The notes under the pieces were generated by a model. That model had not been told where the DNA came from. It searched no databases and saw only the letters and a list, made by a program, of their open reading frames with translations. 53,369 bases of DNA from Geobacteraceae bacterium (GTDB lineage Bacteria; Desulfobacterota; Desulfuromonadia; Geobacterales; Geobacteraceae): contig WSYB01000040.1 in NCBI GenBank assembly GCA_009773645.1, positions 1-53,369 on the forward strand, read 5' to 3'. The position numbers and the translations under genes are program-made. Below are positions 6,861 to 11,102 of the stretch, one piece after another. Numbering within the stretch: the first letter of the stretch is position 1; each line of letters begins with the position of its first letter.

Positions 6861-6891
6861 GACTGTTGCATAAAAAATAATCACAATAAAG

Positions 6892-6920
6892 GGCTGAGAC
6901 ATCTTCTCAGCCTTTTTTTT
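6892..6920 (+). terminator. Terminator of the mod operon
   Basis: Perfect 8-bp stem GGCTGAGA/TCTCAGCC (6892-6899 and 6905-6912) with a 5-base loop, followed by eight T residues. Confidence 0.93.
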
Positions 6921-6990
6921 GGTGCATTGTCAATTTGTCGTTTCTGTTAAGAATTTGAAAATATTGGGAAAACATTTTTATTAGAATGTG

Positions 6991-7005
6991 TGGCACAGCT
7001 TATGC
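6991..7005 (+). promoter_or_regulatory. Sigma54 (-24/-12) promoter upstream of the nitrogen module
   Basis: TGGCAC-AGCTT-ATGC matches the RpoN consensus TGGCAC-N5-TTGC at 9 of 10 fixed positions, with correct GG-to-GC spacing (10 bases). The predicted start is near 7017. Nearly the same sequence precedes the kinase at 10359. Downstream lie an ANTAR-like leader, an outer-membrane protein gene and glnK-amtB, consistent with nitrogen control. Confidence 0.8.
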
Positions 7006-7016
7006 TTTGATGAATC

Positions 7017-7101
7017 GCAAAAGTTAATGCACAACGTTGTGCGTGCAGGAAAACGATTCAGGCAAGGGCGCCTCTACACCGAACGGTTAGGGGCGCTTTT
7101 T
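7017..7101 (+). promoter_or_regulatory. Leader with two-hairpin ANTAR-type antiterminator and intrinsic terminator
   Basis: P1 is a hairpin at 7027-7044 (core TGCAC/GTGCG) with hexaloop AACGTT (7033-7038). P2 is at 7060-7073 (AGGC/GCCT) with hexaloop AAGGGC (7064-7069). Both loops have A at position 1 and G at position 4, the rule known for ANTAR protein targets, and the linker is about 15 bases. The 3' half of P2 overlaps the left arm of a terminator (7068-7074 pairing with 7090-7096, inner stem, then TTTTT), so P2 and the terminator exclude each other. This fits sigma54 initiation plus ANTAR-controlled readthrough, as reported for nitrogen-fixation genes of Geobacter sulfurreducens (GnfR). 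Confidence 0.8.
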
Positions 7102-7205
7102 ATTTAATTTCAGTGAAAGGAGGGGGCTGGGTTGTCGCGCAAGAAAAAGTTGTTATGGTTGTTTTGTGGTGCTTATTAAAAATCACTATTACAAAGGAGT
7201 ATTAA

Positions 7206-8006
7206 ATGATGAAGACGATGAAGATTTTCTCTCTGGCAATGATGCTCGTGGTAACCGCTGCAGGCGCCGCCCTGGCGACCCCCTCCACCCAGATATGGAT
7301 CCCCTCCACCGACATTCAGGCTTACAAGACCCTGCACCTGGGGATCGACAACTATTTCCGCGCTTCCGGCAATCCCAAATCTCCTCCTACCCTCGTATCA
7401 ACTAGAGACGCCAATGTGTTGGATATCGGCTTGACGGCCGGGGTCCTCCCTTTTGAGAAGCTGCAGATGGAAGTCGGGGTTGACTACCTGGTCATCGCCA
7501 ACGATCCGAACGACAACCATCCCGCGATGGGCAATTTCAAGATCGGTACCCCGGAAGAGTCACTGTTCAAGTTCTCTCCGGCACTTGCCGTCGGCATGTA
7601 CAACATCGGCTCGACCCAGCCGGCAGGCAACGCACCTTTCGTGGTCTCAGGGCAGAACATCATTTACGCCCTAACTGCCAAGACTGTTCCGGTCGTTGGA
7701 AGGCTCTCCGCCGGTTACTATCGTGGCAGCAAGAACGCCTTCCAGGATACACGGCTGGATCCGAGCAAGTCGCAGAATGATGGCGTGCTCCTCTCCTGGG
7801 ATCGGACCATGAGCGAGATTTCCGACAAGCTCTGGCTTGCGGTGGACTACATGGGCGGCAACAACGTCATGGGCGCTCTCAATATTGGGGCTTCCTGGGC
7901 TTTTGCCAAGAACGTGTCTGTCATCTTCGCCTATGACATCTATAAAGAGAAAGCCCTGGCCGGTAACAACACCTTCACCACCCAGCTCGACATCAATTTC
8001 CCCTAG
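7206..8006 (+). CDS. Predicted outer-membrane or periplasmic beta-rich protein, nitrogen-linked
   Basis: 266 residues with a clear signal peptide (residues ~1-25, ending AALA). The mature chain has repeated amphipathic beta patterns (LDIGLTAGVLPFEKLQMEVG, RLSAGYYRG, LWLAVDYMGG, VSVIFAYDIY) and ends in a strand closing with LDINFP. This suggests a small beta-barrel or transporter-like outer-membrane protein. AAAGGAG lies 7 bases before the ATG. It is the first gene behind the sigma54/ANTAR-like leader and precedes glnK-amtB, so it is probably induced under nitrogen limitation. The function is unknown; a channel easing entry of small nitrogen compounds is only a guess. Confidence 0.75.
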   Translation: MMKTMKIFSLAMMLVVTAAGAALATPSTQIWIPSTDIQAYKTLHLGIDNYFRASGNPKSPPTLVSTRDANVLDIGLTAGVLPFEKLQMEVGVDYLVIANDPNDNHPAMGNFKIGTPEESLFKFSPALAVGMYNIGSTQPAGNAPFVVSGQNIIYALTAKTVPVVGRLSAGYYRGSKNAFQDTRLDPSKSQNDGVLLSWDRTMSEISDKLWLAVDYMGGNNVMGALNIGASWAFAKNVSVIFAYDIYKEKALAGNNTFTTQLDINFP

Positions 8007-8025: not shown

Positions 8026-8050
8026 GGGGGGAGCTTTCCCCCCTTTTTTT
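8026..8050 (+). terminator. Terminator between the outer-membrane protein gene and glnK
   Basis: GGGGGG (8026-8031) pairs with CCCCCC (8038-8043) around a 6-base loop, followed by seven T. It should reduce readthrough into glnK, although no separate sigma54 promoter for glnK was found. Confidence 0.88.
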
Positions 8051-8183: not shown

Positions 8184-8525
<342 letters not shown>

Positions 8526-8659
8526 ACGGAGACAGGGGACCGGGACTGGTAAAATCCGGATGAAGAGTCTTTCAACCAGGCACGGGTCACGGGTCATTAA
8601 GTTGCTGTGCGGTCAGATCAAGAGATTAAAGTTAAAACACAACGATTGTGGAGGTTAAT

Positions 8660-10135
8660 ATGAAGTTCAAACTTTCTTTCATCAAGCTGCTTTTCGTGGC
8701 AGCGACAGTCCTGGCACCTGTTGCGGTGCCGGCTGAAGAGGCTAAAGCTCCTGCCGCGGCTGCAACTTCTGCAGCGCCGGTCGCAGCTGCGGCAGCTCCG
8801 GCTGAAACCCCGGCAGCTCCGGCGGCTGCGGCGCCGGCTGCCGAACCTGAGAAACCGAAGAACGTCGATCCGGTGCTGAACACCGGCGACACCGCCTGGA
8901 TGCTGGTTTCCAGCGCCCTCGTCCTGCTGATGATCCCAGGCCTCGCCCTCTTCTACGGCGGCATGGTCCGGCAGAAAAACGTCCTTTCCACCATGATGCA
9001 TTCCTTCGTCGCCATGGGGATCGTCGGGGTCCAGTGGGCGGTTATCGGCTACTCCCTCGCCTTCGGCCCGGACGCTTTCATGGGCCTCTTGGGTAACACA
9101 AGCAAGGCGATGCTCAACGGCCTGATCACCTTCAAGGACGGGAACCCGGTCTATACCTTGTTCCAGAACGTCCCCACCGAGCCGGGCTCGATACCCGAGT
9201 ACGTTTTCGCCATGTACCAGGCTATGTTCGCCATGATCACTGTTGCTCTTATTTCCGGCGCACTGGCGGAACGGATCAAGTTCTCCGCTTACTGTCTGTT
9301 TGTCCTTCTCTGGACCACCCTCGTTTACGATCCGCTTGCCCACTGGGTCTGGATGGTTGACGGATGGCTCTTCAAGAAGGGCGCCCTAGACTTCGCCGGC
9401 GGCACCGTAGTTCACCTCTCCTCCGGTATTTCCGCGCTTGCCGCTCTCATCTTTCTCGGCAAGCGGCACGGCTTCCCGACCGAGCGGATGGCGCCCCACA
9501 GCCTCCCTCTCACCATGCTGGGCGTAGGCCTCCTCTGGTTCGGCTGGTTCGGCTTCAATGCAGGGAGCGCCATCGTCGGGGTCAACACCTCCGATGCGGC
9601 GGGCGGCCTGGCCGGCCTCGCCTTCGCTACCACGACCATCGCTCCGGCGGCTGCCGGCCTTTCCTGGATGATCGCAGAATGGATCCATGGCGGCAAGCCC
9701 TCCGCCCTCGGCTTCGGTTCCGGTGTAGTGGCGGGTCTCGTCGTGATCACCCCGGCAGCCGGTTTCGTTCAGCCGGGCGCCGCCCTCATCCTGGGTCTCG
9801 TGGCGGGTGTCGTCTGTTATCTTGGCGTGCTGATGAAGGCCAAGCTGAAGTATGACGACTCCCTTGACGCCTTCGGTGTACACGGGATCGGCGGTACCAC
9901 CGGTGCCCTGTTAACCGGTGTGTTCGCCACCGTCGGTGCCACCGGGCTCTTGTCCGGCAACGTCAAGCAGTTCGTGACCCAGGTGATTGCCGTAGTGGCG
10001 GCCGGCGCGTATGCCTTCATCGTCACCCTGATCATCGCCTTCATCCTCGACAAAACCATCGGTCTTCGGGTGGAGAAAGAGGAAGAGATCATGGGCCTTG
10101 ACCAGACCCAGCATTCCGAGAGTGCCTATAACTGA
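8660..10135 (+). CDS. amtB: Ammonium transporter with Ala/Pro-rich N-terminal extension
   Basis: 491 residues. A cleavable signal (about residues 1-23) is followed by a low-complexity Ala/Pro/Glu stretch to about residue 75, and then by the 11-helix Amt core beginning at DTAWMLVSSALVLLMIPGLA. Amt signatures include GLALFYGGMVRQKN, DFAGGTVVHLSSG and the His region DAFGVHGIGGTTGALLTG. The start is ATG 8660 with TGGAGG 5 bases upstream, not the GTG at 8648. Amt conducts NH3/NH4+ across the inner membrane under GlnK control. The extension should sit on the periplasmic side and is unusually long and Ala-rich. Confidence 0.95.
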   Translation: MKFKLSFIKLLFVAATVLAPVAVPAEEAKAPAAAATSAAPVAAAAAPAETPAAPAAAAPAAEPEKPKNVDPVLNTGDTAWMLVSSALVLLMIPGLALFYGGMVRQKNVLSTMMHSFVAMGIVGVQWAVIGYSLAFGPDAFMGLLGNTSKAMLNGLITFKDGNPVYTLFQNVPTEPGSIPEYVFAMYQAMFAMITVALISGALAERIKFSAYCLFVLLWTTLVYDPLAHWVWMVDGWLFKKGALDFAGGTVVHLSSGISALAALIFLGKRHGFPTERMAPHSLPLTMLGVGLLWFGWFGFNAGSAIVGVNTSDAAGGLAGLAFATTTIAPAAAGLSWMIAEWIHGGKPSALGFGSGVVAGLVVITPAAGFVQPGAALILGLVAGVVCYLGVLMKAKLKYDDSLDAFGVHGIGGTTGALLTGVFATVGATGLLSGNVKQFVTQVIAVVAAGAYAFIVTLIIAFILDKTIGLRVEKEEEIMGLDQTQHSESAYN

Positions 10136-10170
10136 TTTGTATGATGTCTTAACTGATGCAGGTTATAAAA

Positions 10171-10197
10171 AAGCCGCCCGTTGAAGGCGGCTTTTTT
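10171..10197 (+). terminator. Terminator of glnK-amtB
   Basis: AAGCCGCC (10171-10178) pairs with GGCGGCTT (10186-10193) around a 7-base loop, followed by a T-run. Confidence 0.93.
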
Positions 10198-10304
10198 ATA
10201 TATGCTGAATTGATAGGCAGAATATGCCTTGGTTTTCAGCAGAGGGATGTCTGCTCTTTGGATAACCATGCGGAATATAAAGTAGATACGTTACCATATA
10301 AATA

Positions 10305-10319
10305 TGGCATGGCTTATGC
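10305..10319 (+). promoter_or_regulatory. Sigma54-type promoter for the histidine kinase
   Basis: TGGCAT-GGCTT-ATGC has the GG-N10-GC spacing of RpoN promoters and is almost the same as the promoter at 6991 (shared TGGCA and GCTTATGC). The predicted start is near 10331, 28 bases before the kinase ATG. Confidence 0.65.
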
Positions 10320-10358
10320 CAGTATAGAAACGGGTAATTCGATTTATTTCGGAGACAT

Positions 10359-11102
10359 ATGAACAATCCGCTTGCCAAATTTATGACTGCCAACGGCCGA
10401 ATCAAGGAGGATTTCCTCGATCAGCTCGCTTTCAACGAAAAGATGGCGGAGCTTGGCCGGTTGTCGGCAGGGGTAATCCACGAGCTGAACACGCCGCTTT
10501 CGGTGATAGTGTCGGCCGCGCAGATGATTCTGCGGGAGGAGGATCTCCCGGATTTTGTCAAAGAGATGGTGGAACGGATAAATCTGGAGGCTCAGCGGCT
10601 TTCCCAATATACCAGGGGGGTACTGTCGTTTGCCCGCATTGAAGGTGAAGGGGCTGCAGAAGCCGATGTGAACCAGGTGTTGCGAGAGGTTATGGCGTTC
10701 CTCAACTACGAAGCGCAAAAACGTTCCATAACCGTGATCGAGAAGATGGATTACCACCTACCGTCGGTTGTCGCTGACGGTAACCGTCTCAAGCAGATAT
10801 TTATCAATCTGATTATGAACGCATTGCAGGCGATGGAAAACGGGGGCACTTTGACGCTGAGAACATTGGCGCTAGACGACCGCGCTGTTGAAGTCCTGAT
10901 AACCGATACCGGACCCGGTATTCCCAGTGAGACGATAGCGCATATATTTGATCCCTTTTACACTACCAAGGAACCGGGGGAGGGTACGGGGCTCGGGCTT
11001 TTCGTAACCAGGAACCTCGTTGAGCTGCTTGGCGGCCGGATAGAGGTGGAAAGCGCGGCGGGGAAAGGAACCACGTTTACCATTATTTTTCCTTTATCCT
11101 GA
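10359..11102 (+). CDS. Soluble histidine kinase, nitrogen-linked
   Basis: 247 residues with no membrane helix and no recognisable sensor domain. The HisKA dimerisation helix carries the phospho-acceptor His41 in LSAGVIHELNTPLSVI. The HATPase domain shows N-box NLIMNALQAM, DTGPGIP, and GEGTGLGLFV. GGAGA precedes the ATG. It sits behind amtB with a sigma54-type promoter of the same kind as the nitrogen leader. Geobacter sulfurreducens has two nitrogen two-component systems (GnfL/GnfM and GnfK/GnfR), and this kinase is a good candidate for the one feeding the ANTAR protein, but that is inference from context. No response regulator lies next to it. Confidence 0.85.
   Translation: MNNPLAKFMTANGRIKEDFLDQLAFNEKMAELGRLSAGVIHELNTPLSVIVSAAQMILREEDLPDFVKEMVERINLEAQRLSQYTRGVLSFARIEGEGAAEADVNQVLREVMAFLNYEAQKRSITVIEKMDYHLPSVVADGNRLKQIFINLIMNALQAMENGGTLTLRTLALDDRAVEVLITDTGPGIPSETIAHIFDPFYTTKEPGEGTGLGLFVTRNLVELLGGRIEVESAAGKGTTFTIIFPLS

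Follow-up and report, generated by a model that had tools for sequence, protein, structure and literature searches.

The locus raises the question of whether the segment at 6991-7101 (+ strand), with modC on one side and the gene of an outer-membrane-type protein on the other, is a leader in which a sigma54 promoter is combined with an intrinsic terminator opened by an ANTAR-domain antiterminator, and which genes such a leader would serve. It lies on contig WSYB01000040.1 of a Geobacteraceae bacterium; the whole stretch of DNA analysed, 53,369 nt in length, is called the window here. The features concerned are as follows.

6991-7005, + strand: sigma54 -24/-12 promoter TGGCACAGCTTATGC, GG-N10-GC, from sequence and conservation
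7027-7044, + strand: P1 hairpin ATGCAC-AACGTT-GTGCGT, hexaloop at 7033-7038, read from the sequence
7060-7073, + strand: P2 hairpin AGGC-AAGGGC-GCCT, hexaloop at 7064-7069, read likewise
7068-7101, + strand: intrinsic terminator GCGCCTCTA...TAGGGGCGC (7068-7096) with a U-tract (7097-7101), excluding P2
7206-8006, + strand: outer-membrane-type protein gene, 266 aa, named by the first-pass annotation; signal-peptide-like start by eye
8026-8050, + strand: second intrinsic terminator GGGGGGAGCTTTCCCCCC-TTTTTTT, in the gap between the outer-membrane gene and glnK
8187-8525, + strand: glnK (P-II), PF00543, E 6e-35
8648-10135, + strand: amtB (ammonium transporter), PF00909, E 1.5e-129
10359-11102, + strand: GnfK-like sensor kinase, HisKA and HATPase domains

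The first-pass annotation had described a -24/-12 promoter, two hairpins with ANTAR-type loops and a terminator whose left arm overlaps the second hairpin, and its description of the anatomy holds. The promoter was confirmed as TGGCACAGCTTATGC at 6991-7005, with TGGCAC and TGC boxes in the GG-N10-GC arrangement and a conserved position. Judged from the -12 element, transcription would be expected to start near 7017, and initiation is predicted to be under sigma54 control from the sequence and from conservation near P1. The coordinates and loop letters given for P1 (AACGTT) and P2 (AAGGGC) were right, both 6-nt loops carrying A at position 1 (A1) and G at position 4 (G4) as in dual-hexaloop ANTAR targets. 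The terminator consists of a 9-bp lower stem followed by ACC/GGT (7068-7101), and the claimed overlap is real, GCC being common to P2 and the terminator left arm. By this shared GCC and by the energies of the two states, P2 and the terminator are mutually exclusive. The computed energies favour the terminator state by a wide margin (-33.8 kcal/mol, against -10.3 kcal/mol for P1+P2), so that help would be needed to hold P2; a gap of this kind is as expected if a protein must hold it. modC has a terminator-like hairpin of its own at 6888-6916.

Folding of 7011-7106 gave -38.5 kcal/mol (z -5.2). RNAfold closes the P1 loop of the window further by pairing A1 with U6; position 6 is T in only 9 of the 34 A1/G4 P1 loops collected below, which makes the open hexaloop the conserved form of P1. 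The same fold draws a 7-bp outer helix (TGAATCG/CGATTCA) round P1. This helix was rejected: from its beginning at 7011 it lies for the most part ahead of the transcript start expected near 7017 and is therefore probably absent from the RNA, and relatives with linkers of 11-12 nt leave no room for it. The linker between P1 and P2 is 15 nt in the window (17 counting 4-bp stems) compared with 5-12 nt in the eut leaders, according to the available parts of the eut papers (PMC3369931, PMC8934654). It falls within the range of 2-25 nt given for ANTAR targets in the accessible portion of another study (PMC8164766), which is exceeded in two relatives, L003 (26) and L007 (40).

Such an arrangement is rare by chance. 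A strict scan for an A..G.. hexaloop on a stem of at least 4 bp, followed by an A..G.. hexaloop on a stem of at least 3 bp and overlapped by a terminator, found one match on the + strand of the 53-kb window and no match on its - strand. One hundred dinucleotide shuffles of the window yielded 4 matches in all on the + strand, and the pattern occurred in 0/3000 shuffles of the intergenic stretch 6861-7205. Rfam returned no match in the window at the gathering threshold. When six loci were searched at E up to 1, two with dual hexaloops and four from f4, another family of the same order (76 of 141 genomes), the four matches obtained were all far below the gathering scores.

Families f1-f3 contain 49 matched genomes, and in 48 of them, the window's own included, conservation was assessed upstream of the outer-membrane gene. 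Genomes with several copies of the gene entered with one copy each, and G049 was left out, its best match having no gene start, though a covariance model of the leader (R1, built from 19 leaders) matches a leader there. A sigma54 site, P2 and the terminator precede the gene in 41 of the 48. The P2 loop reads AANGGC in 41/41, positions 5-6 being also part of the terminator stem. Of the 41, 34 have a P1 with an A1/G4 hexaloop; these comprise 18 different loops that vary at positions 3, 5 and 6, whereas shuffling of the promoter-to-P2 stretch gave an expectation of 0.90 such hairpins. The stem is GCAC/GTGC in 33 leaders and ACAC/GTGT in one, closed by a C-G pair in 34/34, and in 32 of the 34 this A1/G4 hairpin is the best hairpin with any loop. 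Among 19 leaders, both-sided changes were found at 1 of 4 P1 pairs (G-C to A-U) and at 3 of 9 terminator pairs, the upper of which are unpaired in up to 4/19.

The first-pass annotation had named, as evidence against its reading, leaders that keep the terminator and lose the hexaloop A1/G4. This does occur, in 7/41 leaders, while 34/41 keep both letters; two of the seven differ only by A1 to G1 (P1 with G1/G4), and five have no hexaloop P1. G026 and G027 (L344) show the P1 loop GATGAC, with G at position 1 and G4 kept. Three of the seven are in genomes without a detected ANTAR protein and four are not; two leaders without a hexaloop P1, those of G020 and G002, belong to genomes having an ANTAR protein. 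By eye, a 7-nt P1 loop is found in G011, G012 and G022, the three genomes of the set in which no ANTAR protein was detected, which is suggestive of hexaloop loss as a mark of ANTAR loss. Against this, G022 is only 70% complete, G011 and G012 belong to the same genus, and G011 has an intact P1 (AAAGGT) elsewhere, before a gene that by eye is ammonium-transporter-like. The genomes of G011 and G012 (genus g18) are nearly complete and still carry leaders, the ANTAR protein not being found in them. It also counts against the ANTAR reading that the 7/48 genomes without P2 and terminator at the outer-membrane gene all contain an ANTAR protein. Across the order, the outer-membrane gene was found in 121/141 genomes and an ANTAR protein in 129/141, and R1 matched 125/141 at E up to 0.01 (genomes of the training leaders included); the ANTAR gene is the immediate upstream neighbour of the leader in four genomes (G005, G006, G013, G014).

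These data bear on an alternative in which P1 and P2 have no role of their own and the terminator either works as a plain attenuator or yields to a leader peptide, a riboswitch or another protein. The five leaders that keep the terminator with no hexaloop P1 would fit it, as would an ATG at 7027 that, by eye, starts a 26-codon frame across the terminator. However, this ATG lacks a Shine-Dalgarno sequence (SD) by eye, and the letters before GCAC differ among relatives; no Rfam family was found for the leader; A1 and G4 are retained through the 18 different P1 loops; and an ANTAR partner and a nif regulon exist in the same genome. We consider this alternative very improbable.

A search of the genome (4.74 Mb, 78 contigs) gave a single match to the ANTAR domain (PF03861). 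The protein, a receiver-ANTAR regulator of 188 aa, could be aligned along its whole length with EutV (6wsh, E 2e-33), the Asp region being matched, and likewise with 1s8n, a putative antiterminator (E 1e-48). Downstream of its gene come a sigma54 site, a P2 with its terminator and then nifH (identified by NCBIfam), and thus the regulator is linked to nif genes, as in the GnfK/GnfR regulon. R1 gave ten matches in this genome at E up to 10. The window site scored 70.5 bits, as a member of the training set; matches before nifH and nifEN scored 35.1 and 34.3 bits, and a weak one before nifB 18.3 bits (E 0.29). Reading confirmed the nifB leader, which has a sigma54 site and, in tandem, two terminators that each overlap an A..G.. 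hexaloop. As to the gene names, the nifE part was above its cut-off, whereas nifB narrowly missed its own (338 bits against 344). By eye, and counting against the ANTAR reading, the P1 loop of the nifH leader (L221:7000-7125) is GCCGCA, with G1 in place of A1 and G4 kept, and no P1 was found in the nifEN leader. The remaining matches were judged to be chance: that at C4:108436 (22.1 bits, E 0.03) covers 43 bases at the edge of an opposite-strand gene and has no dual hexaloop, and the others are C71:12876 (E 0.85) and four with E 4.8-9.4. The first-pass reading of the leader as an ANTAR target is therefore supported from two sides, by A1/G4 kept in variable P1 loops with compensatory changes in P1 and terminator, and by the single receiver-ANTAR protein, its gene beside nifH and the leaders before nifH, nifEN and nifB.

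Two further observations concern the nif loci. The nifB leader (L222:11080-11225, in the region of C43:171009 of G000) contains three A..G.. hexaloops and two tandem terminators, all downstream of a single sigma54 site. Beside nifB lies a minus-strand gene (L222, about 9947-10837), and a similar minus-strand gene lies beside the ANTAR gene of an f4 genome (L342:2257-3162); both are presumably ADP-ribosylglycohydrolase-like, a name given from the sequence.

Given the observed anatomy, its conservation and rarity by chance, the partner protein and the similar leaders at nifH, nifEN and nifB, we are confident that the window holds an ANTAR antitermination leader with two hexaloops behind a sigma54 promoter, which would act by the following mechanism. 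Under nitrogen limitation, sigma54-RNA polymerase would start near 7017, helped by an enhancer-binding activator, which in Geobacter sulfurreducens is GnfM. With no antiterminator, the RNA would fold P1 and then the terminator, and transcription would end near 7101. The kinase encoded after amtB would phosphorylate the single receiver-ANTAR regulator encoded before nifH, and a dimer of the regulator would bind the P1 hexaloop and then the P2 hexaloop, so that P2 is held and the terminator left arm is taken. The polymerase would then read into the outer-membrane gene at 7206. If enough transcripts passed the 8026 terminator, glnK, amtB and the kinase itself would also be fed, in a positive loop. 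We infer the pairing of kinase and regulator, the phosphorylation, the binding, the readthrough and nitrogen as the signal; the nitrogen signal and readthrough by phosphorylated GnfR are drawn from the regulon and from published Geobacter work.

The system is the GnfK/GnfR antitermination known from G. sulfurreducens, and control of this kind is thus already known, there in outline; Ueki and Lovley reportedly described sigma54-type activation, leader terminators and a two-component ANTAR regulator in that species in 2010. The assignment follows from the single GnfR-like regulator before nifH, the related nif leaders and the GnfK-like kinase after amtB. In the partially available G. sulfurreducens accounts, gnfK is GSU0941, near PII (GSU0939), and gnfR is GSU2822 (PMC7962754, PMC2725144). 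The kinase gene here lies beside glnK-amtB, and its place after amtB fits that of gnfK near PII, which led us to identify it as GnfK-like; Pfam recognised no sensor domain in the kinase (10359-11102). The two cases differ in that G. sulfurreducens belongs to another genus and that the leader here stands at the outer-membrane gene before glnK. The eut system of Enterococcus faecalis, as given in the accessible parts of two papers, is alike in its two A1/G4 hexaloop hairpins, the second overlapping a terminator, and in its receiver-ANTAR protein EutV (PMC3369931, PMC8934654), and the window is unlike it in having a sigma54 promoter and a nitrogen-fixation regulon. According to the same partial texts, A1, G4 and the closing pair matter in eut mutants (PMC3369931), and G4 makes the only base-specific contact in the EutV-RNA structure (PMC8934654). 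ANTAR substrates have also been placed in nitrogenase transcription units of Pelobacter carbinolicus, a related bacterium; the accessible part of that account does not mention a leader at the outer-membrane gene (PMC3369931). The 2012 search for ANTAR targets, as far as that paper is available, had already returned P-II proteins, ammonium transporters and nitrogenase subunits (PMC3369931).

The leader had been annotated as preceding an outer-membrane protein-glnK-amtB region. It does directly precede the outer-membrane gene, whose product matched no Pfam or NCBIfam family, but the intrinsic terminator at 8026-8050 intervenes before glnK. Because of this terminator, only the outer-membrane gene is secure as a target; readthrough may extend the control to glnK, amtB and the kinase. 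Of 35 gaps that separate the outer-membrane gene from glnK, 8 hold a hairpin passing the strict rule, window included; in this set of loci f4 is represented and some genomes occur twice. We regard it as an even call whether the leader controls the outer-membrane gene only, with glnK, amtB and the kinase using a promoter of their own beyond the 8026 terminator. Besides the strength of that terminator, two g6 relatives (L002; L086/L344) point to such a promoter, each having a separate sigma54 site between the outer-membrane gene and glnK. So does PII GSU0939 of G. sulfurreducens, for which the available part of the source gives primer extension without a -24/-12 element and, in a table, RpoD (PMC2725144). 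However, the gap before glnK in the window contains no sigma54 pattern, and a scan of its + strand found no sigma70-type site. Gaps of 20-36 nt without a terminator are found before glnK in six relatives (L004, L102, L111, L154, L157, L160), suggesting co-transcription there, and one f4 genome (G121) keeps the order of outer-membrane gene, glnK, amtB and kinase seen in the window, with a kinase 58% identical to the window's.

In f4, the upstream region of the same gene was read in 61 of the 72 genomes having it. A sigma54 pattern plus SD occurs in 17/21 regions, but the leader differs from that of the window. A hairpin of the form [GA]A[TC]GRRA-Y-C-6 nt-G-Y-TTTC[AG]T[CT], then an SD, was found in 42 of the 61 leaders; the search pattern prescribed the letters of the stem and a C-G closing pair and left the loop letters free. 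The loop has A1 in 42/42, A2 in 41/42 and G4 in 42/42, with any base at position 3 and variable positions 5 and 6, in 15 different loops. The element spans 73 nt (e.g., L164:880-952, L170:861-933, L241:371-443), and its hexaloop hairpin ends 27-31 nt before AGGAG. Among the 19 leaders without the hairpin, L172 narrowly misses the pattern, L236 has a deletion, and some loci carry quite different leaders. RNAalifold unaided recovered this stem and loop, enclosed by a second helix (GAACG/CGTTC); both-sided changes were seen at 3/15 pairs, and for the named structure on distinct rows at 2/13 pairs, a value reached by 4 of 500 shuffles. The open hexaloop closed by C-G is present in the minimum-energy fold of 33/42 leaders. 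The loop thus has the A1 and G4 of an ANTAR target; there is only one hexaloop, the upstream AACG being paired with CGTT, and a terminator-like pattern was found in 1/42 leaders, where (L178) it is the hexaloop hairpin itself before TTTTCAT. The element shares the ANTAR-loop letters but neither the dual hairpin nor the terminator, and was therefore kept out of the dual-hexaloop family.

A covariance model of the f4 element (R2) matched 56/141 genomes, 55 of the 76 f4 genomes and one of f1 (G019, where the gene behind looks truncated by eye), mostly with one strong copy each. In the other 136 genomes of the class it found one weak place (28.6 bits). Twelve further places include ten with the hairpin (G4 in 10/10, A1 in 8/10, G1 in 2/10) and two without it, a weaker test because R2 had learned the loop. 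Among these further places, the SD stretch is altered in four (L332-L335); at L330, two stem pairs are changed on both sides. An ANTAR protein is present in 70/76 f4 genomes; of the six without it, which are 52-88% complete, four carry the element. A switch that sequesters the SD was considered, as TTTCATC could pair with GATGAAA beside the SD, the near copy being present in 38/42 leaders. It was dropped: the minimum-energy fold holds the arm of the hexaloop hairpin in 38/42, and the alternative shows no compensatory change.

For f4 we propose, with confidence and doubt in equal measure, that a single hexaloop before the ribosome-binding site, with no terminator, lets the same ANTAR regulator family control the same gene after initiation, antitermination having given way to control of translation or mRNA stability. 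The rival reading, to which we assign a somewhat smaller but substantial chance, is that the hairpin is an unrelated element, acting on translation or mRNA stability or belonging to an N-terminal coding extension, and that its AANGNN loop is coincidental. Consistent with the rival, the second hexaloop is absent, the hairpin stands before one gene, mostly as one strong copy per genome and not across a regulon, the frame of the outer-membrane gene is open through it in several loci, and it is stable alone, which leaves no obvious change for binding to make. However, A1 and G4 are invariant in the 42 leaders while positions 3, 5 and 6 are free, and the further set agrees, with the limit that its model had learned the loop. 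The gene is the same as behind the dual-hexaloop leaders, and the ANTAR protein is found in nearly all f4 genomes. A coding extension as the cause of the conservation was rejected, since A1 and G4 fall on third codon positions whereas the first two positions are variable, and the reading frame from element to SD differs in 4/42; in this comparison only A1 and G4 are codon-informative, because the third positions of codons 2, 5 and 6 were fixed by the search pattern. The proposed single-hexaloop control has a partial parallel in actinobacterial ANTAR RNAs that overlap the ribosome-binding site, which share with f4 an ANTAR-type loop near the SD and no terminator; as described in the accessible part of that study, they are dual stem-loops for which translation repression was shown, whereas f4 has one hexaloop hairpin (PMC8164766). 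The f4 element was not found in a literature search that covered few subscription papers.

The leader in the window would put one more gene, for an outer-membrane-type protein, under double gating, by sigma54 and by an RNA-binding regulator. The kinase is possibly behind its own switch: if readthrough happens, its own phosphorelay opens the terminator ahead of it. The f4 element, if the proposal is true, would be a natural single-hexaloop ANTAR target, of a sort foreseen by Walshe et al. 2022 in the available part of their paper (PMC8934654), and would mark a change of mechanism at one orthologous locus. Together, 36 dual-hexaloop leaders (34 with A1/G4 and 2 with G1/G4) and 42 single-hexaloop leaders form a natural data set before orthologous genes, with which two questions can be put to the test: does an ANTAR dimer need two hairpins, and do ANTAR proteins outside actinobacteria act where there is no terminator?
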